Positions 4,367 to 21,700 of a stretch of DNA of 64,000 bases are shown here, in pieces. The stretch's first letter is position 1, and each line of letters starts with the position of its first letter. The position numbers and the translations under genes were made by a program. Source of the stretch: Hufsiella arboris (GTDB lineage Bacteria; Bacteroidota; Bacteroidia; Sphingobacteriales; Sphingobacteriaceae); contig NZ_WVHT01000004.1 in NCBI RefSeq assembly GCF_009834875.1, positions 124,001 through 188,000 on the forward strand. The letters run 5' to 3'. A model generated the notes under the pieces. The model searched no databases. It worked only from the letters and a program-made list of their open reading frames with translations, and was not told where the DNA came from.

Positions 4367-6466
4367 TTAATTAATTTCATATTGATAAAGCGCATAACTG
4401 TTCGGCACTGCTAACTGACATTTTAAACGTCCGCTTGGTTCTGTCGTGGTCACGTAACTTTTGCCATCTCCGAGTACAGAAGTTAACGTTACTATTCTAC
4501 CGCCGGGCAACCAGGTAGAAAGCCAGGACGTTTTTTCGTTATTATTTTCCCTGATGATCAATAAATAACCTTTATTTCCAATGCTCGATTGAAAACCCGT
4601 CCATGATGTTCCGCTTGGCTCGTTACCTATCGGAAAGATCATTCCCGAGTGTATGGCTGTTTGAATGCCGCGGTATTTTTTGATGTTATTGGCGCTGGTG
4701 AATGCAGTTTCAGGAAGCCCTGTTGCTTCCATCCAGGCCAGGGGCTGCGCCATCATGGTTAAAGCAAACCCGTAGTCAAACGACAGCTTTGCAGGTGCAA
4801 GCAGATCGTTAGGGGCGTATTTATCGGTATTCCGGCTGTTATTCAAAAATTCGATTTGCAGGTTTTGAGGCGGTACATATCGCGATAACTGCCAGAGGTT
4901 GCGTAACGTAAAGTGCGGATAATAATTACCCCAGTCCGTATACCTGTTTTCCAGGAAAATGTTGCCGTACTCATTGAAATAATGATAACCGTTCCTCCGT
5001 CCTGCGGTAACGTCCAGGTTAAATACTACTTCGTTGTTAGTCACCGTCATGACTGAATCAAGTGTTCTGCGAAAATTCACCTCGCCTTTTTTGTCAACTA
5101 TCTGAACGCCATCAATTTTGAATGTACAGATACCGTAATGTTTATACAGATTGATCAGAGCGGCTGCATCATCTTTCCAATGGGTATAGCTGCTATCCTG
5201 ACTGGGATTAAACCATAAACAAATTTCGATACCAAGCTTTTTACCCAACTGTACTATAGGATCAAGGCCGTTTGGAAACTTTTGAGGGTCGGGCTTCCAA
5301 TAGTTTGGGTTACTCCAGATACTGTTAAGGCTTCCTCCCGGCAGGGCCGAGTTGGAAGAACGACCGCTTTGCCAGCCATCGTCGATCTGAAAATGGCTGA
5401 TACCCAAACGGTGGGCAGCGACCAAGTCCTTAAGAATGAATTTTTCGCTTATATGACTATCCTGTGCACGATCCCCCCAGGTGTTCATCATAACCATATC
5501 GTCGCGAAGCGGTTTGTGTATCCTTATGCGCTGCTGATAGTTACGCAAGGCCCTGAGTCTGCCCGCTTCGCCGCCAGCGGATAAACCAGTAACAACTCCA
5601 TAACATTTTGTCCATTTGACTGAATCAAGATCAGCGGGGGTAAGACCTATACCGACGCATTGTAAACTGCCGAATTTAGCAATATAATCAAACCCCGGAT
5701 AAGCCAATTGAACGTCTGATGTCGGTGCTTCTTTTAAAATGAAGATGCTTCTGTCACTCAATATTTCACTGGCGTACAACAGGTTGCCCCTAACCTTGCT
5801 TTCTCCCCTGTATAGTATTTGATCATAATCCTGAACCAGGTTATTGTTCCTGTCGGTTATATCAAAAAATTCTACAGCTTTAAGCCGCCAGTGTTTTCCG
5901 GGCAAGGCTAGAGTCTCCATTACAGTCGCTTGTGCGGTACCTTCCTTAGCGGCAGCATTGTTTTCTATATTTCGCAGTTCGCCGGCTTGTTTTATGGAAG
6001 TAAGCCATTGTGCTTTAATATTTCCACGAAGGTAGAAATCACATGCTATGGCCGGGCAATCGGGGTAAATTCTGAATACCCGCCTAACTTCCAGTTGATT
6101 GAATCTAACAGTAACGCTGACAGCCAAATAAGACGGCGTGGAAGCATTAGACGGTACAAATCTGGTTTGCAGATTGCCATCTATTGCCTTACCGGTTCCC
6201 GGGAAAAGACAATCGGGTGTACTTCCGCTTAATTGCCAGGTGAACTTATCTTTTTTGTCTGTAATCGATGCGCTGATCAGGTCGCCATTGTTCCATTTAT
6301 AAGTTCTGCTGATTACCGAATTACCAAGTGTTAATTCGTCGTTATTCAGCGTGGCGTAACAAGTTTTTACATCCTCAACTGCCGCAGAGAATGCCTTATC
6401 GGTTATTAGAATACTTAATGCTGCAAAACAAAATAGTATGCACAGCTTTCGGTTTAGATTGATCAT
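4367..6466 (-). CDS. Secreted melibiase-like glycoside hydrolase (clan GH-D, GH36-like)
   Basis: Predicted periplasmic or surface glycosidase, probably acting on alpha-galactosides or related sugars. The 699-residue protein has a signal peptide (residues 1-28, ending near AFSAAV), a beta-sandwich N-terminal region to about 310, a TIM barrel from about 320 to 600 and a C-terminal beta domain. In the barrel, FQIDDGW (360-365) and FKIDG (449-453, Asp452 the candidate nucleophile) match the positions of the clan GH-D motifs. NLDVTAGRRNGY (483-494) sits where GH36 enzymes carry the acid/base Asp. It is the last gene of the minus-strand PUL, downstream of susC, susD and a broken cellulase-like gene. 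Family is fairly sure; exact substrate is not. Confidence 0.8.
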   Translation of the reverse strand: MINLNRKLCILFCFAALSILITDKAFSAAVEDVKTCYATLNNDELTLGNSVISRTYKWNNGDLISASITDKKDKFTWQLSGSTPDCLFPGTGKAIDGNLQTRFVPSNASTPSYLAVSVTVRFNQLEVRRVFRIYPDCPAIACDFYLRGNIKAQWLTSIKQAGELRNIENNAAAKEGTAQATVMETLALPGKHWRLKAVEFFDITDRNNNLVQDYDQILYRGESKVRGNLLYASEILSDRSIFILKEAPTSDVQLAYPGFDYIAKFGSLQCVGIGLTPADLDSVKWTKCYGVVTGLSAGGEAGRLRALRNYQQRIRIHKPLRDDMVMMNTWGDRAQDSHISEKFILKDLVAAHRLGISHFQIDDGWQSGRSSNSALPGGSLNSIWSNPNYWKPDPQKFPNGLDPIVQLGKKLGIEICLWFNPSQDSSYTHWKDDAAALINLYKHYGICTFKIDGVQIVDKKGEVNFRRTLDSVMTVTNNEVVFNLDVTAGRRNGYHYFNEYGNIFLENRYTDWGNYYPHFTLRNLWQLSRYVPPQNLQIEFLNNSRNTDKYAPNDLLAPAKLSFDYGFALTMMAQPLAWMEATGLPETAFTSANNIKKYRGIQTAIHSGMIFPIGNEPSGTSWTGFQSSIGNKGYLLIIRENNNEKTSWLSTWLPGGRIVTLTSVLGDGKSYVTTTEPSGRLKCQLAVPNSYALYQYEIN

Positions 6467-6581: not shown

Positions 6582-7226
6582 TCATAAGGTGAATCTTTTT
6601 ACAATCTTCGTATTTTCGACAGATGGCATGATTGGCGCATTTTTTATAATCGCTGTCATTTTCTGGTGCCATTCAACATCCTGCCACATACCTTCAAACT
6701 GAGGGCCGCAAAAATTGCTGGTAGCCATGGCAACCCACTGCCCGGTCGCGGCCGCAGTGGTTACACCCAATTCACACAGATCTTTGATCCAGTTCCATTC
6801 CAGCATGGGGTAATCCTTGTAATTAACCAGCGACCAGCATTCTGTCGAAATCAGCGGCTTACTCGCAGCTTTCGCGTCGGCAGCTAATTGCTTGATGCTG
6901 TTAGTCAGCACAGCGTCCCAATGTGTTTTATTCTCCTTATACAATGGTTCAGCTTTTTGAACGAGCCTGTGATAATCGTCGGCTGAAAAGCCATTCCAAT
7001 CCAGGCCAAGTTTATTATTGAATTCACCGTCATTCATACTGGACATCCAGATATGCTGTTCTATAAAGTCAAGAAAAGGTATCGAAGTATCGGCAAGTAA
7101 CTTTTCTTTGTAATGATCCATCGAAAAAGTATAGGGCACATCCGGATATTTTTGCCGTATAGGTTGTATGGCTCTTTTCATCCAGTCTAACGAAGCTGCT
7201 ATGTTCTGCTTATTATTTTCAGGAAG
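6582..7226 (-). pseudogene. Truncated cellulase-like protein, C-terminal fragment
   Basis: About 214 codons are open, but the N-terminal part is lost: reading upstream, the frame meets TAA about 45 bp before the first ATG (7179-7181). The sequence around that ATG (AASLDWMKRAIQPIR, then VPYTFSMDHY) already reads as the middle of a protein. The end (GVTTAAATGQWVAMATSNF, GPQFEGMWQDVEWHQ) resembles the C-terminal part of sugar-binding cellulase-like proteins (TIM-barrel type) found in Bacteroidota PULs. A full member would be about 400 residues or more. It lies between susD and the melibiase-like gene in the same direction, so it is probably a decayed PUL enzyme. Confidence 0.6.
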
Positions 7227-7564: not shown

Positions 7565-8971
7565 TTAATATCCCGGGTTCTGAATCAAATTCGGATTCGC
7601 GTCCAGCTCAAATTGCGGGATAGGATATATCAATTTAGGATCGTTATATTTTTTACCGCCGACATCCTGCCGGGTACGTTTAATAACGTTATAAAGATCA
7701 CCTTCAAATGCCAGCTCTTTTCTTCTTTCAAGCAGGATCTGATCTACGCTGGTTATCGTTATTCCGCCAAGGCCGGATCTTCCCCTGATCAGGTTAATAT
7801 CCTGAGAGGGTGTTAAATCACCGACTTGCTGCCCGCTCCTGAAATTAGCTTCGGCCCGGGTAAGATGCATTTCTGCCAGGCGAACAATAGGAATAACAGC
7901 AAACCTGTCGGTCCATTTAGACGTCCTCAATATTCCAGGTTTGTCTCCCGTCCCTTCGTAAAATAAATCGCCCCGTGCATCTCCCGTTTCGTAAATCTGC
8001 AAATGACTGTCGTTGATATCGACATCGCCCCGGCCAATTCCAGGCATACTTGCATAAAACGTAGAAAGACCAGAATTGGCGGTGCCTGCATTCGCCTGCG
8101 CGTTTTGTTGTATCGCGAAAATATCTTCCGATGAGTTACTTGAATTATTAAACGCCTGTGAGATTGCAGGAACTAATCTGTAATGTCCGGAAGTAATAAC
8201 CGTGTTAGCGGCAGTCGCTGCTTTTTGCCAGTCTTCCTGGGCCAGATAAATCCGGGATAGAAAGGCCGCAGCGGCATATTTTGTTGCCCGTCCATCATCC
8301 ATCGTTTCGTTTAAAAGGCTTTCTGCGGAAGTTAGATCTGCGATGATCTGCGCATATACCTCCCCGACTGAATTCCGGCTTACATTTAATTCGTTTCCGA
8401 TCGTTGTTGTTGGGCTTAAAACAAGCGGAACACCGGCTTGCGAGTTAGTACCAGATGGGCCGCCGGTCCAGGGCTGAGCGTAAAACCTGATTAGTTCAAA
8501 ATAGACAATACCCCTGATAAACCTGGCTTCGCCAAGTATCTGATCTTTAATGGACGGATCAACCACTCCAATGCTTGCTTCTACATTGTTACAAATGTTA
8601 ATGGCGCTGTAAGCAGCGGTCCAGTCGTTAGCTGCATTCACGTTGGTGGCAGTCGCATTTTTATTGTTTATATCCCGGTAGCTGGTAAATGAGCCGCTCC
8701 AGGTGATGTCGGTTGTATTCACAAATAATTCACCGATCAGGTTGTAATTGGTACCGTAAAGAGTTCCAAGAGTGCCCGCTGTCGCCGGAATGCCATATGC
8801 TATGGTGCTATAAGCGCCGAACAATGTGTTCACAACTCCGGTAGAAGTTGTCAAAGCGACATCCGAATCTATAGATTGTTGCGGTTTAATATCATCCAGC
8901 TGCTTCTTACACGACAGATTGCTGATAACAACCGCGATAAAAATAAATCCTGTTTTTATAATTGACTTCAT
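7565..8971 (-). CDS. SusD/RagB-family outer-membrane glycan-binding lipoprotein
   Basis: Surface lipoprotein that captures oligosaccharides and forms the lid of the SusC transporter encoded just upstream. The 468-residue product has a lipoprotein signal peptide with lipobox NLSC (Cys about residue 21, then KKQLDDIKP). The SusD-like N-terminal TPR fold follows (residues about 40-230), then the RagB/SusD domain with typical segments GEARFIRGIVYFELIRFYA, RIYLAQEDWQKAA, VIPIVRLAEMHLTRAEANFR and the C-terminal LIYPIPQFELDANPNLIQNPGY. The length is usual for the smaller family members. Its start is 11 bp after the susC stop, so the two are one transcript. Confidence 0.96.
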   Translation of the reverse strand: MKSIIKTGFIFIAVVISNLSCKKQLDDIKPQQSIDSDVALTTSTGVVNTLFGAYSTIAYGIPATAGTLGTLYGTNYNLIGELFVNTTDITWSGSFTSYRDINNKNATATNVNAANDWTAAYSAINICNNVEASIGVVDPSIKDQILGEARFIRGIVYFELIRFYAQPWTGGPSGTNSQAGVPLVLSPTTTIGNELNVSRNSVGEVYAQIIADLTSAESLLNETMDDGRATKYAAAAFLSRIYLAQEDWQKAATAANTVITSGHYRLVPAISQAFNNSSNSSEDIFAIQQNAQANAGTANSGLSTFYASMPGIGRGDVDINDSHLQIYETGDARGDLFYEGTGDKPGILRTSKWTDRFAVIPIVRLAEMHLTRAEANFRSGQQVGDLTPSQDINLIRGRSGLGGITITSVDQILLERRKELAFEGDLYNVIKRTRQDVGGKKYNDPKLIYPIPQFELDANPNLIQNPGY

Positions 8972-8982
8972 GATGCTCTTTC

Positions 8983-11900
8983 TTAAAACTTGAGATTAAC
9001 GCCAAAAGTGATGGTACGCGCCTGCGGAGCGGTATAAAAATCCACGCCATTATCGATATTGGAAATAGTGGTTGTATTCACTTCCGGATCGCCGTTATTG
9101 TAATTGGTAAAAGTTAAAAGGTTAAAGCCCGACACATACACTCTTGCGCTGCTAAAAAAGTTTTTAACCATTCGGCCAGGAATCGTATATCCCAGCGAAG
9201 CGGACTTCAGGCGCAAATACGAGCCATCCGAAAGCCACCGAGATGAAGTCCTGGTGCCGTTCGATTGTAAAAAACGCGCCTGCGGCACATTGGTTATATC
9301 ACCCGGTTTTTGCCATCGGTTTAATTGATCGGAAGTTTGGTTGTCGAAGAAATCAGCATTAACCGATTGGTAGATACCAGCACCATTATAAATATCATTG
9401 CCGGATACAAACTGGAAGAAAATATTGAAATCAAAGTTTTTATAAGAAAAGTTATTTGTAAAGCCGCCTGTAAAATCTGGGTTTGAATCGCCCACAACCT
9501 GCCTGAAAGCGGAATTATAGTCATTTGTTGTTGTCCCGTCCTGCAAATAATAAAGTGCATCGCCATTTTGCGGATCAACCCCCGCGTACTTCGCTGTAAA
9601 AAAGACACCAATTGGCTGACCTTCAATTGCCCGCTGAGGCGCCCTTCCGGTTCCAAGGATTACCTGGCCGTCAAGGTCTTTAACCTTGTTCCTGTTAAAC
9701 GAAATATTGAAATTGGTACTCCATTTAAATGCCCCAACAAAATTCTGCGAGTTTAATGTAAGCTCTAAGCCCTTGTTTTCCAGCGAACCTACATTCTTTA
9801 AAACCGTTGCAAAACCAGAGGTAGCGGGTACGTTCACATTTAAAAGCAGATCTTTTGTCTGTTTATTATAGTAAGAAAAATCACCACTCAAACGGTTATT
9901 GAAAAATCCAAATTCAAGTCCGGCGTCAAAAGATCCAGTCTTCTCCCATTTCAAGTCTGGATTTTCAACTTGTGTCGGTGTATAACCAGGCATGTTCGGA
10001 TAAACGGAAGAACCGAATAATGCCAGCGACTGGAAATCAAGAATGCTGGAATTTCCCGTATAACCATAGCCGGCTCTCAACTTTAAAAAACTAAGCCATT
10101 CCGCGCCGCTCAAAAACTTTTCCTTGCTGATGATCCATCCGGCAGAAATTGCGGGAAAAAATCCATAACGGTTATTGGCGCCAAACTTACTTGAACCGTC
10201 ATAACGGGCACTTAGAGCCACCAAATATTTATCGGTGAAACGGTAATTAGCCCGGGCAAAATAGGATACAAGCGCTTCGTCTGTTCCGAAAGAAGAACCG
10301 AAAGTAATATCGGAAGCACTAGCCAGGTTTTTGAAATCATCAGAAGGGAAACCTTCGCCAACTACTTGTGAGGTTTTTACGTCTTGTTTCTGGTAAGAGA
10401 ATCCTCCAACGGCTTCCAGGTTGTGCTTCTCGCCAAATTTTGTGTTATAGCTTAAAAAGGTGTTCGAAGTATAATTCAACGACGTAACTGTTCTGTAATT
10501 TCCGTTACCTGTTGGGTTGCCCTGGGTTTGCCGTCCCTGGAAACCATCTTCCGATTGGTTCAGCACGTCAACTCCAAACTCCGTTCTTAAATTCAGTGCA
10601 GGCAAAATTTTATAGGAGGCGTATGCATTTGATATATTCCGGTAAACGATCGTTTTAAAATATGCATCACGTGCCTCAATCAATCCGTTGTAATATGGCC
10701 CTGTTGTGCTTAATTCGTTAGTTGATGGATCGATGACGGGCTGAATAGGCGGCAAAGCCACCAACTGGCCCGGCGTACTGAATGAATTATCGTTTGCCAC
10801 ACGATCATTTCTGCTCCTGGCAAGATTCAGGTTTACACCCAGCGAAAGTTTATCCGTAGCCGAGTGATCGAGATTTAACCGTCCGCTAATGCGCTTAAAT
10901 GCGTTCTGAATTAAAATACCTTCTTGATTCGAGTAGGCTCCCGATGTAAAGAATCGCGTTTTTTCGTTTCCACCCGTGGCCGAGATCTCGTACTGGCTAT
11001 TGCCGGCAGAGGACCGGAACTGCTCATCCTGCCAATTCGTATTGACAACGGCATTCCGCCAATCGGTTCCGGCAGAAAATGCATCAAAGTTATCTTCCAG
11101 GTATTGTGTATAGGCATCGATGGCTTCCTGCTCGTTTGCGGCAGGTCCAAAATTTTCTATATCGTTAGCAAAATCATACTTACCTCCGTTTACAGCCGCT
11201 TCTTCAAACAGCTCGACGTATTGCTGCGAGTTTAAAAAGTCCCGCTTTACTGCCGGTTTGCTGATGCCGGTAAAATAGTCAAGGGTAAAAACCGTTTTAC
11301 CGCTTTTACCTTTTTTTGTTGTTATCAATATAACGCCATTTGAAGCTCTTGACCCGTAGATGGCGGATGCGGAAGCATCTTTTAAAACTTCGATCGATTC
11401 AATATCATTAGGGTTAATATCTGCCAGCGGATTACTAGGATCAAAATTCACCGCATCGCCTACACTTACCGATGTGATGGGAATGCCATCGACAACATAT
11501 AGCGGCTGATTACCGGCAGTTACCGAAGAAGATCCCCGCACGCGGATAGCGATGCCCTGCCCTACTTTGCCAGAACCCGATGAAACAACGACACCCGCGG
11601 CTTTTCCCTGTATAGCTGATTCAAATGATTGTACCGGTTGGTTTTCAATTTCCCTGGAATTTACTTTTGCTACCGAACCCGTAAGGTTTTGCCGTATTTG
11701 GGTTCCGTAGCCAACAACAACCACCTCAGAAAGCTGCTTTTGTTCACTTTCAAGCTTAACATTGATTACTGTTGAAGTTATTGATACTGTTTTCTGCTGA
11801 TACGAAATATATCTAAACACCAGGTTTTTGGCATTCGCGGGTACACTTAAACTGTAACTTCCTGATGCATTGGTTTGAGTACCGAGACCAGGGATTTCCT

Positions 11901-12039
11901 GTACCACTATACTTACACCGGGTAACTCGCTCCCATCTTTAGCGTCTGTCACCTTTCCGGTGATGGCCCTGGTCTGGGCAAATGCGATTACATTTAGAAG
12001 AAAAAGTAAAGGAATAAAGCACGTAAATCTTTTTTTCAT
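8983..12039 (-). CDS. SusC/RagA-family TonB-dependent outer-membrane transporter
   Basis: Outer-membrane importer of a glycan, partner of the SusD lipoprotein. The start chosen at 12039 gives MKKRFTCFIPLLFLLNVIAFAQ, a normal signal peptide preceded by AAAGGA; a start seven codons upstream (12060) is possible but gives a poor N-terminus. Domains in order: carboxypeptidase-regulatory-like domain (mature residues about 25-100, ITGKVTDAKDG), plug domain with VVVVGYGT, VRGSSSV, PLYVVDGIP and a DASASAIYGSRASNGVILITTKKG segment, then the 22-stranded barrel ending in ITFGVNLKF. About 1018 residues, normal for SusC. A 19-bp palindrome lies about 110 bp upstream and may be the operator of the neighbouring two-component system. 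Confidence 0.97.
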   Translation of the reverse strand: MKKRFTCFIPLLFLLNVIAFAQTRAITGKVTDAKDGSELPGVSIVVQEIPGLGTQTNASGSYSLSVPANAKNLVFRYISYQQKTVSITSTVINVKLESEQKQLSEVVVVGYGTQIRQNLTGSVAKVNSREIENQPVQSFESAIQGKAAGVVVSSGSGKVGQGIAIRVRGSSSVTAGNQPLYVVDGIPITSVSVGDAVNFDPSNPLADINPNDIESIEVLKDASASAIYGSRASNGVILITTKKGKSGKTVFTLDYFTGISKPAVKRDFLNSQQYVELFEEAAVNGGKYDFANDIENFGPAANEQEAIDAYTQYLEDNFDAFSAGTDWRNAVVNTNWQDEQFRSSAGNSQYEISATGGNEKTRFFTSGAYSNQEGILIQNAFKRISGRLNLDHSATDKLSLGVNLNLARSRNDRVANDNSFSTPGQLVALPPIQPVIDPSTNELSTTGPYYNGLIEARDAYFKTIVYRNISNAYASYKILPALNLRTEFGVDVLNQSEDGFQGRQTQGNPTGNGNYRTVTSLNYTSNTFLSYNTKFGEKHNLEAVGGFSYQKQDVKTSQVVGEGFPSDDFKNLASASDITFGSSFGTDEALVSYFARANYRFTDKYLVALSARYDGSSKFGANNRYGFFPAISAGWIISKEKFLSGAEWLSFLKLRAGYGYTGNSSILDFQSLALFGSSVYPNMPGYTPTQVENPDLKWEKTGSFDAGLEFGFFNNRLSGDFSYYNKQTKDLLLNVNVPATSGFATVLKNVGSLENKGLELTLNSQNFVGAFKWSTNFNISFNRNKVKDLDGQVILGTGRAPQRAIEGQPIGVFFTAKYAGVDPQNGDALYYLQDGTTTNDYNSAFRQVVGDSNPDFTGGFTNNFSYKNFDFNIFFQFVSGNDIYNGAGIYQSVNADFFDNQTSDQLNRWQKPGDITNVPQARFLQSNGTRTSSRWLSDGSYLRLKSASLGYTIPGRMVKNFFSSARVYVSGFNLLTFTNYNNGDPEVNTTTISNIDNGVDFYTAPQARTITFGVNLKF

Positions 12040-12148
12040 ATCCTTTATTATTAAAGTCAATAGTCAGCATGAGGATATTCCTAACGCAGCTCAACATGCT
12101 CAGAAAGAAATACCTTTCTTAAATCTACGACCATAAAAAACGGATAAC

Positions 12149-12167
12149 ATCACCCTAAAAGGGTGAT
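12149..12167. promoter_or_regulatory. 19-bp palindrome upstream of susC (candidate operator)
   Basis: ATCACCCTAAAAGGGTGAT is a perfect 8-bp inverted repeat with a 3-bp centre, 110 bp before the susC start. A closely similar site lies before the histidine kinase gene at 16211-16229. Two-fold symmetry fits binding of a dimeric NarL-type regulator. The role is inferred. Confidence 0.6.
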
Positions 12168-12512
12168 TTTTAAGAAGATAGCTAAAAAGATAGAATTGTA
12201 TTTCAATCCTATTATCATTCAGAAAATATCACATTGATTTTGAAAGATTTATTAGGTGATTGAATGGAAATGACTTTCGTTTGCTCTCATAAACTTCCAT
12301 ATGAGAAGATTTCAGTGCGAGACATTGTAAACGAACGCTCGTCACTTTTTGCATTTGCAGCCCCGCCATTCGGTACAAGTCCTCACTCCAGCGCCTGGCC
12401 TTCGCTTCGTTCCGGGCTTTTCCCTACTGTCGGGTTTAATGCTGAAAGGTTTGATTTCGTCGGCTAGCGGATTTGCCGAAAAACCTTGCTTTCAAATAAA
12501 TTAAGCCGATGA
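12168..12512. other. Intergenic region between susC and the response regulator gene
   Basis: The 345 bp hold no convincing gene. The 67-codon frame on the plus strand (12264-12467) has no family resemblance and lies in a locally GC-richer stretch that looks like degenerate intergenic repeat sequence. The susC promoter should lie at the left end. Confidence 0.4.
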
Positions 12513-13145
12513 TTAAATGAGCTTGTTTTTTCGTGCTGTCTTTAGAGCATCAGCACGGGAATTTACGTCTAGTTTCATGTAGATGTTTTTGATGTGGCTT
12601 CTGACGGTTTCCAGGTCGATAAAAAGTTCCCGGGCGATCTGGCTTCGATTTTTACCATTTCCTACCAGCTCGAGGACTTGTGTTTCCCGCTTTGACAAAG
12701 GCGAGTCCGGGTTCCGCTGAAACGATTTGATTACCATCCTGGCGATATTGATACTCATCGGCCCACCGCCTTCTTTCACTTCGCGGATTGATTCGACAAT
12801 TTTAAAAGAGCTCGAATTTTTTGTCAGGTAACCGGAGGCACCGCTGGCAAGGGCATCAAAAATTAATTTTTCCGAGTCATACACGGTGAGAATAAGGACA
12901 AATGCATCCGGTACGATTTTTTTTAGTTTTGGCAGCGCCTCAATGCCGTTAGTGCCCGGAAGTTCAATATCCAGCAGGATAACTTCAGGCTCGTCTGCCG
13001 ATATTTTTTTTGCGGCTTCATCAAACGACGCATATTTGTTAACGACATGAAAACCGGGTTCTTTTCCGATCAGAAAAGCGTAACCATTACGGATGATTTC
13101 GTCGTCTTCAATAATTACAACTCTGATCACATCCTCACTGCTCAT
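12513..13145 (-). CDS. NarL/FixJ-type response regulator
   Basis: DNA-binding regulator of a two-component pair. The 210-residue protein has an N-terminal receiver domain (about 6-122) with the acidic pocket IIEDDE, phosphorylation site Asp59 in VILLDIELPG and Lys109 in GYLTKNSSS. The C-terminal LuxR-type HTH (about 147-208) contains LSKRETQVLELVGNGKNRSQIARELFID-like signature residues. Its start overlaps the end of the histidine kinase gene by 11 bp, so the two are translationally coupled. The likely targets are the susCD operon and its own operon, given the shared palindrome. Confidence 0.95.
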   Translation of the reverse strand: MSSEDVIRVVIIEDDEIIRNGYAFLIGKEPGFHVVNKYASFDEAAKKISADEPEVILLDIELPGTNGIEALPKLKKIVPDAFVLILTVYDSEKLIFDALASGASGYLTKNSSSFKIVESIREVKEGGGPMSINIARMVIKSFQRNPDSPLSKRETQVLELVGNGKNRSQIARELFIDLETVRSHIKNIYMKLDVNSRADALKTARKNKLI

Positions 13146-16100
13146 ATCCCAGGTTTAATTCTTTTGAAATCGATAATCTGATCGCCGTTCCTCTATCCTG
13201 TGTTGAATTTATATCTAATTCTGCCCCAATTCGCTTTGCCCGGACGGCAATATTATTTAAACCAGTTCCTTTGCCGGCGCTTGTCTGGCTAAATCCTTTA
13301 CCATCATCTGACAACTCAATTTCTACGAATCTTTCAAATTGATTAACCTTTAACGACACATGATTTGCGCCGGAGTGCCGCAATGAATTATTTAACGATT
13401 CTTTAAATATCATGCTGATATTGCGACTGAATTCCATGCCAAGCTTAATGTCCGAAAGATTTTCTTGAATCCCATAAAAGTTGAATTCTATCGCAGTATC
13501 CTGAAAAAGCTCCAAACCAAATTCGCTGATATGGCTTAGTATCTCAAATAAATTATCGCTCTTGGGATCCAATGCCCATAAAATATCTTTTGTGCCGCGA
13601 TACAGGGACGACGCGTTTTCTTTTATCTGGCTTATCAGATGGCGCTCTTCGGCATGCTCACCGTTGAGTTTAGTATTTAGAATATCTGTGAGGATAGAAA
13701 TACGTGTTAACTTATTTCCGAAGTCGTCATGAAAGTCTTCCGCGGTTTGCCTTCGTGTTTTCAAACGCTCCTGCTGTTTCATCTCTTCGATAACCCGCAG
13801 CCGTTGGTTTTTGCGTTTGTGTAAATAAGTTTGAAAACCAATTCCAATCAGAACCAAGCTTAAAACAGCTAGAAGCCGGAATATAATAGTCTGATAAAAA
13901 GCCTGCCGGATACTGAATGGAAATTTTAGAATATTGTCTGAATAACTTCCCGATTTATTGAAGGCTCTGGCTTCAAAAACATAGTCGCCGGGCGGCAATG
14001 CCTGGTAATTTACACTGGAATTCGGTGTAGGCCTGGAAAAGGCATCGTCAATACCTGATAACCTGTATTGATATAAAACTTCCGATGGGTTGGTAAAATA
14101 AATTCCTTTAAAATTCAGGCTGAGCTGATTTTTGCGGTATTCAAGTTCCAGGTTTTTCGGCAATATATACCCATCTGTGCGGCTCAGGTATGGTTGCTGC
14201 TTTGCAATTGAGGAAGAAAATAGTTTGACTGACTGAAGAACAATATGGGGTCGTTCTTTTTTTTGGTTGTCTGGGTTTAGCTCAAAAGTTACGGCGCCTT
14301 TAGTGGTTCCGAACCACAGCTTGTCTCCATCTTGATAAACTGCATTTTGATTACACTCCACCACAAGTCTTTTCGATTTTTCGGCGCCCGAAATTGTGAA
14401 TTTCCGGGATGATGGATTGATCTTTATCTTATTAATGCCGCGCCCCGTGCCAGCCCAAATAGTTCCGTTCTCATCGTTGGTTAAACTATAAATGGTATTC
14501 GAGTACAATCCTTGTTTTGCTGTCAGGTTTTTGAAAGAATGATCTTTTAAATTCCAGATCCAGATACCTTCATCTCCGGTGCCTAAAAAAACCTGGTCGT
14601 TCAATTTCAACATCGAATATATCTCCGCTTTCTCTGCGTGACGCCATTTTAATTCTTTAACCTCATGATTTTTACCAATGATTAAATACTTGCCTGCCGG
14701 CGAGATTGCCAAAACAGAATCGATTCCGATTTCGGCCAGGCTGGTTGCGGGAAAATTAAAGTTCTTGATATGAGAAAATTTTCCTTTTGCCATTATGTAA
14801 CATCCTTTTGGAGTAGCAAACCAGATCGTTCCCTGTTTATCTTCAATGATCTGACGAATTACGTTAACTTTTGTTCCTGCCAAAAAAGGAATGCTTTTAA
14901 AAGCGCCGCCATCATATTTCCATAAACCGGCGCCTAATGTTCCGATCCAGATATTACCTGCCCGATCATTGAACAAATGCAGAATTCCGTATGAAACTGA
15001 GTCGGGAACCGGAATCTTTATCAGGCTTTTTTCGCCGTTTTTTATCTTTAACAAGTCCTTTCCATAAGAGTGTATCCAAAAATTACCACTTTTATCTTTC
15101 GCGAACCCCATCACAACTTCGTTAGACAAGCCCTGCCCTTTGTCTAAAATCATGGTTCTATCGCCATCGTATTTATAAATGCCCGCTCCTTCGGTTCCAA
15201 ACCAAACATTATTTTCGGTGTCTTTGAAAATTTGGTTGACCATATTATCGGTAAAGCCGTTTCCGGAATTAAAGAATGTTATTTTTTGCGGTTCAATGTA
15301 ATAAGCTCCGGAATTTGCACCTATCCATAGATTTGACTTTTCGTCCTGCATAATTGAAACCATGAAATTATTTCCAGTTCCGATAACATTAGTCTGATAC
15401 GGCCTAAGTAGGTTATTTTCTGAAATATATAGTCTTCGTGGCGTCATTACCCACAACTTATCTTTAGCAGCACGATCAAAAAGCAAAGACGTAATCATTA
15501 TCTTTTTTTCGGCAGCCGGCAGATCAAGTATCTTAATCCATTGATTGCGATTCAGTTCAAAAATTCCCTTATCATAAACTGCGGCAACCAGCTTTCCCTC
15601 GCCACTGATTGTTAAAGCGGTAACTAAGCCATTAGGAATGCCTCGTTGTTTAACAAAGCTAAGTTCGCTTCCTGAAAAGGTAAATATCTGATTATTGATT
15701 AAACCATAAATATTCCCATTATTTCCGTTAATTAATTTTGTTACCCACGAAGCCTGGGATTGATTGGAAACACGATAATTTTGAATTTTTAAACCATCGT
15801 ACACTGAAAGGCCGTTTAAAGTGCCAATATAAATTTTGCCATTATCGCCAGTCGCAATAGCAGTAGCCCCGGACCCCGCAAGATTGTTTTCTGTTCGCGT
15901 TAAAGAAAAAAACTGGCTTCCGTCAAAGCGGGACACACCGCCCTGGGTAGCCATCCATAAATGATGACTAGGGCTTTGTGCAAAAGCTTTGACTTGCGAC
16001 TGGATTAAGCCGTCTTCGATATCATAATGGGAGAAATTAAAACGCTGAGCTATTGAGACACTATGACAAAAGGCGAAGAAAAGAGCTGTAACAGCGAGTT

Positions 16101-16164
16101 TACGATATCTGCAAAATGGATTAAAGACGCCCATTAATCTAGATTTAAACAATCTTGTTCCCAA
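13135..16164 (-). CDS. Two-component sensor histidine kinase with periplasmic beta-propeller (PUL sensor)
   Basis: Membrane kinase that senses a glycan fragment in the periplasm. The 1009-residue product has a signal/anchor near the N-terminus (about residues 20-40) and then many two-component-regulator propeller repeats (about 40-665: repeated LWMATQGGVSRFDG, IWIGTLGAGLWKYDG, IWAGTGRGINKI). A Y_Y_Y domain follows (about 690-755), then one TM helix (about 765-785). The cytoplasmic dimerisation/phosphoacceptor domain is HisKA_3 type (His in TAEDFHDDFGNKLT), followed by a HATPase domain (DDGKGF, GTGLNNI). Unlike many Bacteroidota PUL sensors it is not fused to its regulator; the regulator is a separate overlapping gene. 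Met11 (16134) is an alternative start. Confidence 0.95.
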   Translation of the reverse strand: MGTRLFKSRLMGVFNPFCRYRKLAVTALFFAFCHSVSIAQRFNFSHYDIEDGLIQSQVKAFAQSPSHHLWMATQGGVSRFDGSQFFSLTRTENNLAGSGATAIATGDNGKIYIGTLNGLSVYDGLKIQNYRVSNQSQASWVTKLINGNNGNIYGLINNQIFTFSGSELSFVKQRGIPNGLVTALTISGEGKLVAAVYDKGIFELNRNQWIKILDLPAAEKKIMITSLLFDRAAKDKLWVMTPRRLYISENNLLRPYQTNVIGTGNNFMVSIMQDEKSNLWIGANSGAYYIEPQKITFFNSGNGFTDNMVNQIFKDTENNVWFGTEGAGIYKYDGDRTMILDKGQGLSNEVVMGFAKDKSGNFWIHSYGKDLLKIKNGEKSLIKIPVPDSVSYGILHLFNDRAGNIWIGTLGAGLWKYDGGAFKSIPFLAGTKVNVIRQIIEDKQGTIWFATPKGCYIMAKGKFSHIKNFNFPATSLAEIGIDSVLAISPAGKYLIIGKNHEVKELKWRHAEKAEIYSMLKLNDQVFLGTGDEGIWIWNLKDHSFKNLTAKQGLYSNTIYSLTNDENGTIWAGTGRGINKIKINPSSRKFTISGAEKSKRLVVECNQNAVYQDGDKLWFGTTKGAVTFELNPDNQKKERPHIVLQSVKLFSSSIAKQQPYLSRTDGYILPKNLELEYRKNQLSLNFKGIYFTNPSEVLYQYRLSGIDDAFSRPTPNSSVNYQALPPGDYVFEARAFNKSGSYSDNILKFPFSIRQAFYQTIIFRLLAVLSLVLIGIGFQTYLHKRKNQRLRVIEEMKQQERLKTRRQTAEDFHDDFGNKLTRISILTDILNTKLNGEHAEERHLISQIKENASSLYRGTKDILWALDPKSDNLFEILSHISEFGLELFQDTAIEFNFYGIQENLSDIKLGMEFSRNISMIFKESLNNSLRHSGANHVSLKVNQFERFVEIELSDDGKGFSQTSAGKGTGLNNIAVRAKRIGAELDINSTQDRGTAIRLSISKELNLGYEQ

Positions 16165-16210
16165 AATCCAGGAGAAATGACAAATTAATATTTTTACAGG
16201 TTGATTTCAA

Positions 16211-16229
16211 ATCACCCTAACCGGGGGAT
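16211..16229. promoter_or_regulatory. Second copy of the 19-bp palindrome, upstream of the histidine kinase gene
   Basis: ATCACCCTAACCGGGGGAT matches the susC-upstream palindrome at 16 of 19 positions, including the complete left half. It lies 47 bp before the kinase start, suggesting autoregulation. Confidence 0.55.
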
Positions 16230-17109
16230 AATATAAGTTACCGTTTATTCGACTAATGGAATGGTATGTTCGATTATCGATAATGTTAATTGATATCGAT
16301 ATAAATAAATATCGCGCAGCTGTTCAAACTAAATGGTTTCTAAAATACACTCGTTTTGTTACAATTCATGACCAAAACCGGTATTCATTTTGCATAACCG
16401 GCATTTCCAATTCAAAAGTTTATCGGCTGATCAAGAAAAAATGCGTTGTATCCTCAAAAACCCCAATGTTGTATAAACGGCGCCAGAAACACTTTACAAC
16501 ATTTCTCAAAAACTAAACAATAAATGTAGACTATATTTCTCTGTATTGCACATTTTGTAGAAAAAAATACACGATTTATTCATTGCATTTTTGATGATAA
16601 TTATTAAATTTGAAGGGTTAACAACTTTTTATGTCACTTTTTTCAAGAAAATGGGATTTTAATAATTAATTTTTCAAACCTGAGAAACGTCCTTTTTAAA
16701 TGGGAAAAGCGCTTTTTAAAATTTCACATTTTCGAATTAAATAGAATTATAAATATTTTAATAATTAGAAATGCTTTTTTCCTAATATTAGCCAGCTAAA
16801 TTGTCCCTTTATTATTGAGGCACAGTTTATGAAAAGAAATCCTTGCAACGTTAGTTATACATTGCATCATTTGGCGAAAGCCATTCTCTTTAATGCCCGT
16901 TGAAGAGACTATCTATGACGACAAGATCGTATACTGGTATTACAGACAAGAACCCTGTAATTGTTCTTTATATCAACACTACAGTTTATAACTGTATCGA
17001 ATTGAATCAACCAACTGCCTTGCTAATTATATTGTAATTATTCTCATGAACTCTTTTTAGAGTTTATTTGAACTTGGCTACCATCTACTTTAACATAAAT
17101 TTTAAAACT
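16230..17109. other. Long AT-rich intergenic region between the PUL and the EPS locus
   Basis: About 880 bp with no convincing gene. An 86-codon frame at 16256-16516 has no signal, domain or family look and is probably chance. The region holds one consensus promoter (16583-16612) and a small hairpin AACTCT-TTTT-AGAGTT at 17049-17064 just before the first HTH gene. Confidence 0.5.
16583..16612 (+). promoter_or_regulatory. Bacteroidota-type promoter far upstream of the first HTH gene
   Basis: TTG at 16583-16585 and TAAATTTG at 16605-16612 are separated by 19 bp, a consensus match. If used, it gives a leader of about 490 nt before the HTH gene at 17110. Confidence 0.5.
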
Positions 17110-17472
17110 ATGGACAAACATTACGGACAAATTGTAGAGTATCGTGTAAGAAAAAACGGCTACAGCATTACCGATCTTGCCAGATGCATGAATGTAAATA
17201 GAAGATCTATTTACAACTGGTTTAATCAAAAGTATTTGAAATCAGATATAATTTTTCGTATCGGGTGTGTCATCCGGCATAATTTCTCCCAGGAATTTCC
17301 AGAATTGTTTATAGATGAGGATTTCAACATGATAAGCAATCCGGAATCGCAATCGTTCCGCGCCAGGTATTACTCATACAATGAGAACGAGAATTGGAAA
17401 GCTAAATACATTTCTTTGCTGGAGAAGTATAACGAAATGCTATCAAGAGAGTCTACATACCAGGCTGTGTAA
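17110..17472 (+). CDS. Small HTH DNA-binding protein, paralogue A
   Basis: Predicted transcription regulator of 120 residues. The start at 17110 (MDKHYGQIVEY) is chosen because the paralogue at 20701-21066 begins with the same residues; the frame is open 14 codons further upstream but that part is not conserved. Residues about 7-60 look like an HTH fold: SITDLARCMNVNRRSIYNWFNQK, with NRRSIYNWF the likely recognition helix. The C-terminal part ends in a conserved stretch WKAKYISLLEKYNEML that looks helical and may mediate dimerisation. No named family is recognised beyond XRE-like HTH. It faces its paralogue across a TonB-dependent receptor and a lipoprotein gene. Confidence 0.8.
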   Translation: MDKHYGQIVEYRVRKNGYSITDLARCMNVNRRSIYNWFNQKYLKSDIIFRIGCVIRHNFSQEFPELFIDEDFNMISNPESQSFRARYYSYNENENWKAKYISLLEKYNEMLSRESTYQAV

Positions 17473-20700: not shown

Positions 20701-21066
20701 TTACAAGTCTTGACCAATTCTGGCAGAAAGCAAAGAGTTATATTTCTCTAAAAGTGCTATGTATTTGTCTTTCCATGTAATTTGATTTGAAGATTCATAG
20801 ACAGATTGATCATTATTATTACTCGGCGCATTCGGCTTAGGAGTAACAGTAAAGTCTTCTTTTGTAAAAAGCTCAGGAAATTCCGCGGAAAAATCATGAT
20901 GGATTATGCAGCCAATGCGGTAAATAATTTCCGGCTTAAGATATTTTTGATTAAACCAATTATATACAGACCTCCGGTTTATGTATGTTAAACGAGCAAG
21001 TTCACTAATACAATAACCTTTTTTCCGTATAACTAACTCAACTATTTGGCCATAGTGTTTGTCCAT
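20701..21066 (-). CDS. Small HTH DNA-binding protein, paralogue B
   Basis: A 121-residue paralogue of the protein at 17110-17472, in inverted orientation. It shares MDKHYGQIVE at the start, RRSVYNWFNQKYLKPEIIYRIGC in the middle and WKDKYIALLEKYNSLL near the end; the central linker differs (here rich in Pro, Asn and Ser). The start at 21066 is set by this conservation. A 20-bp inverted repeat (AATTAGT-N6-ACTAATT) lies 25-44 bp upstream and is a candidate autoregulatory site. It is followed upstream by the UpxY-like antiterminator in the same direction, so both may be one transcript controlling the EPS locus. Function as regulator is inferred. Confidence 0.8.
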   Translation of the reverse strand: MDKHYGQIVELVIRKKGYCISELARLTYINRRSVYNWFNQKYLKPEIIYRIGCIIHHDFSAEFPELFTKEDFTVTPKPNAPSNNNDQSVYESSNQITWKDKYIALLEKYNSLLSARIGQDL

Positions 21067-21090
21067 AACATTGAAATTTAAGTTAACAGC

Positions 21091-21110
21091 AATTAGTATT
21101 GACACTAATT
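21091..21110. promoter_or_regulatory. Inverted repeat between UpxY-like and HTH genes (candidate operator)
   Basis: AATTAGT at 21091-21097 and ACTAATT at 21104-21110 form a 7-bp inverted repeat with 6-bp spacing immediately upstream of the HTH gene. A looser AT-rich dyad (TAATTA-TATTG-TAATTA) occurs about 75 bp before the first HTH gene. Confidence 0.4.
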
Positions 21111-21175: not shown

Positions 21176-21700
21176 TTAAAAAACGCGTTGTTGTTCGGCT
21201 GGATAAAGTTTACGAGGGTTAATTTTTACCGTTAAAGCGCAATTGATATTTTCTATTACCATAACAACAGACTTGCCCTGGACCTGGTAAACCTCACCCT
21301 TATAATCTAAAAAAGGTCCGTTGGCAACCTTGACACTGTCTCCGACATTAATACTGCTTAACGATACAGTTTCAACGTCGGAGTATTCTTTAACAATGCT
21401 TCGTATACGTTCTATTTCTGTATCATTAATTGTAGCGGGTTTGCCGCAATGAGATATAAAGTTAACCACACCAGAGGTCTGCATTACTTTCGAGTGTTCG
21501 AAAGGATTTAGCTTTACAAAAAGATATGAGTTAAATAAAGGTATCTCTACCACCTTATTCCTATCTACCCATTGCCTGTTTGATTTAACCAATGGGCAAA
21601 AAGAATTTATATTCTGATCCTTAAGAAGCTTGTCAACCTTTTTTTCCCACCGCGCTCGTGTATAAAGGACCATCCAATTTTTATTCAAAGTTTCTTTCAT
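21176..21700 (-). CDS. UpxY-like NusG-family transcription antiterminator
   Basis: Specialised NusG paralogue that lets RNA polymerase read through long polysaccharide operons. The 174-residue protein has an N-terminal NGN domain (about 8-110: WMVLYTRARWEKKVDKLL, then FNSYLFVKL) and a C-terminal KOW domain (about 118-170: VGDSVKVANGPFLDYKGEV). This length and the early WYVLYT-type motif match UpxY proteins of Bacteroides capsule loci. Unlike those, it is not the first gene of the operon but is divergently transcribed from it, 433 bp away. No UpxZ-like inhibitor gene is seen nearby. Action on the 22134-48896 transcript is inferred. Confidence 0.88.
   Translation of the reverse strand: MKETLNKNWMVLYTRARWEKKVDKLLKDQNINSFCPLVKSNRQWVDRNKVVEIPLFNSYLFVKLNPFEHSKVMQTSGVVNFISHCGKPATINDTEIERIRSIVKEYSDVETVSLSSINVGDSVKVANGPFLDYKGEVYQVQGKSVVMVIENINCALTVKINPRKLYPAEQQRVF

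Follow-up and report, generated by a model that had tools for sequence, protein, structure and literature searches.

Two short palindromes in a 64,000-nucleotide stretch of Hufsiella arboris DNA (the window) are very probably operators of the response regulator encoded at 12513-13145, as judged from comparative analysis of the family. One precedes the operon for a sensor kinase and this regulator, the other precedes susC, and the system would be a two-component system that regulates itself and a few neighbouring genes, with an unusual pairing of sensor and regulator. Control of susCD and of its own operon by the regulator, as proposed in the initial annotation, is supported by the exclusivity of the two sites in the genome, by their counterparts in 35 of 35 orthologue operons, by the co-occurrence of motif and regulator, by the spacing to a promoter box, and by the co-variation of half-site and recognition helix.

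The Two Palindromes and Their Locus

On the minus strand, the genes follow the order sensor kinase, overlapping NarL-type regulator, susC, and susD. Site B lies in front of the kinase and site A between the regulator stop and susC. The main features are the following:

7565-8971, minus strand: susD, presumed to belong to the susC operon
8983-12039, minus strand: susC (SusC/RagA TonB-linked receptor; TIGR04056), the predicted target
12149-12167, minus strand: putative operator A, ATCACCCTTTTAGGGTGAT in minus-strand reading, at the susC promoter; a perfect 7-N5-7 inverted repeat
12513-13145, minus strand: NarL/LuxR-type response regulator (REC and GerE), the predicted binder of both operators, with recognition helix ETVRSHIKNIY
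13135-16134, minus strand: sensor kinase (Reg_prop propeller, Y_Y_Y, HisKA_3, HATPase_c); its gene overlaps that of the regulator
16211-16229, minus strand: putative operator B, ATCCCCCGGTTAGGGTGAT in minus-strand reading, at the kinase-regulator promoter; with conserved counterparts in L073 and L074 of Daejeonella

The palindromes ATCACCCTAAAAGGGTGAT at 12149-12167 and ATCACCCTAACCGGGGGAT at 16211-16229 have 16 of 19 bases in common and lie where the initial annotation had placed them. Its distance of 110 bp from site A to the susC ATG at 12039 is also correct, while the 47 bp given for site B applies to the TTG at 16164, where the longest open frame of the kinase begins; measured to the likelier start, the ATG at 16134, the distance is about 76 bp. 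The unit described there as 8-N3-8 has to be redrawn, as the conserved unit is 7-N5-7, that is, ATC[A/C]CCC-N5-GGG[G/T]GAT. Site B is imperfect, with one differing base in its 7-base arms, one of which reads ATCCCCC, and A/C variation at position 4 is normal across the family sites.

A scan of the window at up to three mismatches gave three matches, two from site A, which matches on either strand, and one from site B; the expectation for shuffled sequence is 0.02. Over all 4.8 Mb of the genome, ATCACCCTNNNAGGGTGAT at up to two mismatches was found at sites A and B only; the other eight places all have three mismatches, a threshold at which the reversed control gave two. With at most one mismatch allowed, the family consensus ATCMCCCN5GGGKGAT likewise returned sites A and B only and its reversed control none. 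Numerous copies at random places, which had been named as evidence that would count against a regulatory role, did not appear in the genome scan, which gave two sites only. A further imperfect palindrome, AT-rich, with 19-nt arms that are 84% complementary and containing TATCGATA, lies at 16283-16312, upstream of the kinase promoter.

The regulator consists of a receiver (PF00072, E 4.9e-21) and a C-terminal GerE helix-turn-helix (PF00196, E 3.3e-17), and its phosphorylation residues D14, D15, D59, T87, and K109 are invariant in 10 diverse orthologues. Among solved structures its best matches are VraR, DevR, and DesR, with NarL further down, and it scores below the cut-off of each NCBIfam equivalog among the matches listed. 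The periplasmic part of the sensor kinase matches PF07494 (Reg_prop) and PF07495 (Y_Y_Y).

Downstream of susCD, the window contains a Melibiase-like gene (4367-6466) and a truncated cellulase-like gene (6582-7181). The latter, on the minus strand, encodes a protein (PF12876) that matches only profile positions 177-355 of 355, and each of the three frames in the stretch between it and susD is interrupted by stops, so that the gene looks truncated at its start. In the closest related susCD locus (L073), no evident glycosidase follows susD. Elsewhere in the window, two paralogues of about 134 aa, at 17068-17472 (plus strand, MDKHYGQIVEY..) and 20701-21105 (minus strand, MDKHYGQIVEL..), flank a TonB receptor; the first has a weak HTH match, and the pair adjoins a NusG-like gene (21176-21700).

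Occurrence of Site and Regulator in the Family

The regulator protein was searched in 398 family genomes, and the loci at its matches were fetched with or without the motif. Kinase-promoter sites were scored as ATC[A/C]CCC-N5-GGG[G/T]GAT with at most one mismatch. Among close orthologues (at least 68% identity), the site is found at the 5′ end of the kinase gene in all 35 operons with an intact upstream region, a 36th being left out as cut by a contig end; in the next tier (53-63% identity), it is present in 42 of 55. The shuffle expectation for this count is 0.00 and the reversed pattern gave 0. The regulator is present in 51 of the 58 motif-bearing genomes, against 97 regulator genomes among 399, a co-occurrence with a Fisher p of about 1e-29 that ignores relatedness and is thus overstated. 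After removal of sites whose surroundings are more than 70% alike, 48 kinase-promoter sites and 35 second sites are left, in which the core is fixed and the flanks diverge. A conserved site block is also visible in the Daejeonella alignments, and the named relatives comprise Daejeonella, Mucilaginibacter, Pedobacter, Hufsiella, and Nubsella.

The kinase-promoter site is absent from Pedobacter loci L169 and L170, and three relatives at 67% identity (L220, L221, and L223) have only a degenerate site. Sites within genes (L082, L083, and L085) were counted as background, and those of genome G180 (L078 and L079) were left out because their spacing of about 200 bp is like that of a repeat array. Locus L078 holds six copies of a TTCACCC..GGGTGAT-like palindrome at this spacing, probably a repeat array. 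In a group of Pedobacter loci (L125, L128-L130, L132, L143-L145, L147, L149, and L152), two palindromes about 40 bp apart precede the kinase, and the regulators have VKTH or VRTH helices.

Recognition Helix and Half-Site

The half-site changes with the recognition helix of the linked regulator. VRSHIK regulators are accompanied by ATC half-sites in 74 cases and by ATA-type half-sites in 2, whereas for VKTHIK regulators the numbers are 17 and 37. The association has a p of about 6e-17, which is overstated, many of the genomes being related. The helix positions that vary correspond, we assume, to the contact residues of NarL. On comparative grounds, the strongest indication that the site would be read by the linked regulator itself is this co-variation.

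The sites might instead belong to another DNA-binding protein, of AraC type or another of LuxR type, their linkage to the regulator being incidental. The genome does offer candidates, with 16 GerE matches and an AraC relative elsewhere. However, the eight other readable GerE helices all differ from that of the regulator, the AraC relative sits at another susC locus that has no site, and the sites track the regulator across genomes and change with its helix. Another owner is therefore very unlikely.

Promoter Geometry

The Bacteroidetes −7 element is TAnnTTTG, with a second element near −33 (PMC7366714). Both palindromes in the window are followed by a similar box:

12120-12127, minus strand: predicted −7 box TAGATTTA, 5/6 to TAnnTTTG, offset 21 nt after operator A
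16181-16188, minus strand: predicted −7 box TTAATTTG, 5/6 and imperfect, offset 22 nt after operator B

Across the family, 27 of 35 second sites have a box resembling TAnnTTTG at offset 21, against an average of 0.75 per offset. At the 48 kinase promoters the peak is weaker: offset 21 has 13 boxes and offset 22 has 8, the mean being 1.26. Given the known −7 and −33 elements, a box 21-22 nt downstream puts the palindrome centre near −42 relative to the predicted start, and the end of the palindrome falls roughly at the expected place of the −33 element.

An operator centred near −41.5 occupies the position typical of class II activators. In both promoter sets, with start sites predicted, the centre falls near this position at a fixed spacing from the core promoter. 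The site geometry is thus, for the predicted start sites, an arrangement for activation, and activation rather than repression is the probable outcome of binding. It could be argued that the regulator binds both sites as a repressor, blocking polymerase until a signal releases it, since the palindrome abuts the promoter and a bound dimer could occlude it. Repressor sites would nevertheless vary more in position, including overlaps with the −7 box or the start site, whereas constant spacing to the −7 box and a centre near −42 are classical for activators, and repression is accordingly considered unlikely.

The same geometry bears on a reading of the palindromes as RNA hairpins, that is, terminators or attenuators in a leader or 3′ region. 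The repeats can fold, a coding-strand T-run follows in 48 of 79 kinase-promoter sites, and positions 4 and 16 co-vary above chance. On the other hand, the site is upstream of the −7 box and so outside the transcript from that promoter; in 41 of 136 sites, positions 4 and 16 hold an A.G or C.T mismatch, the pairing of positions 8 and 12 is no higher than expected, and a T-run follows in none of 57 second sites. Taken together, these observations make a hairpin function extremely improbable. The terminator form was rejected, as neither site in the window has a terminator-like prediction and pairing is not kept across the family sites.

Proposed Mechanism

If the palindromes are operators, the membrane sensor kinase (13135-16134) would detect a nutrient cue through its periplasmic propeller and Y_Y_Y part and phosphorylate the response regulator. 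A dimer of the regulator, whose binding presumably depends on this phosphorylation, would then occupy ATC[A/C]CCC-N5-GGG[G/T]GAT centred at about −42. There it would take the place of the −33 element and recruit the polymerase of the main sigma factor to the −7 box 21-22 nt downstream. Only two promoters would respond, namely, that of the kinase-regulator operon, which would give positive feedback, and that of susCD.

Circuit Layout across the Family and Its Possible Rewiring

The second site has another neighbour in one Pedobacter group and in most Mucilaginibacter loci: it precedes a glyoxalase-like (VOC) gene with an AraC-type regulator, or AraC alone, and no site accompanies susC where these loci have it. 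In the window, by comparison, the VOC-AraC pair is absent from the locus and the second site is at susC. Daejeonella-like L073 has two sites, one ahead of susC and one ahead of a gene for 172 aa, and in L220, L221, and L223 the degenerate site precedes VOC, AraC, kinase, and regulator genes in one run. The genome of the window has a VOC-AraC pair with susC elsewhere (G000, contig C3:23364-24212, L286), beside what appears to be another kinase and response regulator, and the palindrome is absent from that locus. The presence of this set without the site indicates that the pieces of the circuit are separable.

Judging from gene order and sites, the circuit of the window appears shorter, with the regulator acting on susCD directly. 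There is perhaps an even chance that one conserved kinase-regulator pair of the Sphingobacteriaceae controls a movable regulon whose specificity code is readable, governing VOC-AraC and metallopeptidases, and thereby peptide use, in Mucilaginibacter, and rewired in the lineage of the window directly to susCD with the AraC step dropped.

Relation to Known Systems

The hybrid two-component systems (HTCS) of Bacteroides PULs resemble the present system in their sensor, with periplasmic Reg_prop propellers and Y_Y_Y, and in local susCD control. In an HTCS, however, a single polypeptide holds the kinase, receiver, and AraC domains, whereas the window has a separate kinase and a regulator with a GerE domain; the shared sensor is insufficient to make it an HTCS. 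HTCS and SusR motifs have been described as direct repeats with long spacers (PMC3878776), unlike the short inverted repeat of the window. Among the PUL regulators described from Bacteroides, SusR-like proteins, HTCS, and ECF sigma factors predominate, and the survey includes no LuxR-type regulator (PMC3878776).

With NarL/FixJ regulators (NarL, VraR, DevR, and DesR), the regulator shares the REC and GerE architecture and palindromic operators, but it has its own motif, ATCMCCC-N5-GGGKGAT. As in other two-component systems that control their own operon and a small local regulon, two sites would serve the own operon and a neighbour, while relatives differ in routing the output through the VOC-AraC pair or to peptidases. 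No description of the motif or of this regulator type was found in the literature searched, which included few subscription journals.

The pairing of a propeller-type sensor with a NarL-type regulator extends over Pedobacter, Mucilaginibacter, Daejeonella, and Hufsiella, and with it go a short, defined operator, the predicted promoter geometry, and a code in the recognition helix. A defined operator allows regulons to be predicted by sequence search, and the loci offer a natural series of rewired circuits.

Distal Sites and Peptidase Genes

Sites far from the regulator are nearly all in Mucilaginibacter; they are intergenic, and the box spacing is preserved in most. Among the 28 distal sites, 17 adjoin a metallopeptidase or DUF885 gene, or 11 if DUF885, which we take to belong with the metallopeptidases, is not counted. 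The families are M24, M16, M13, M1, TldD/PmbA, DUF4953, and DUF885, and the sites are located as follows:

L065, L068, L071, L072, L076, L091, L094, L095, L314, L315, L320, L321, L324-L327, L329: distal sites before metallopeptidase or DUF885 genes

Direct Pfam scans of 30 further genes from these neighbourhoods gave no metallopeptidase, and with this small control the enrichment has a Fisher p of 1e-7 (9e-5 without DUF885). The counts were tallied by hand from tables and include several genes orthologous to one another; a few distal genes were assigned because their N-terminal residues resemble those of a homologue that had been scanned.

Since distal Mucilaginibacter sites precede metallopeptidase genes, the cue may be a peptide rather than a polysaccharide, at least in this genus. 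SusCD-type transporters have been linked to the uptake of proteins or peptides (PMC11817032). RagAB-type peptide uptake is only an analogy, for the relatives; the locus in the window also has glycosidase-like genes. The label of PUL sensor used in the initial annotation is doubtful: the regulon of the relatives is tied to peptidases and the VOC-AraC pair. The metallopeptidase link suggests that propeller sensors beside susCD need not sense glycans. One palindrome (L318, 4044-4062, G384) lies before the gene for a 1238-aa Reg_prop histidine kinase, a possible kinase-to-kinase link.
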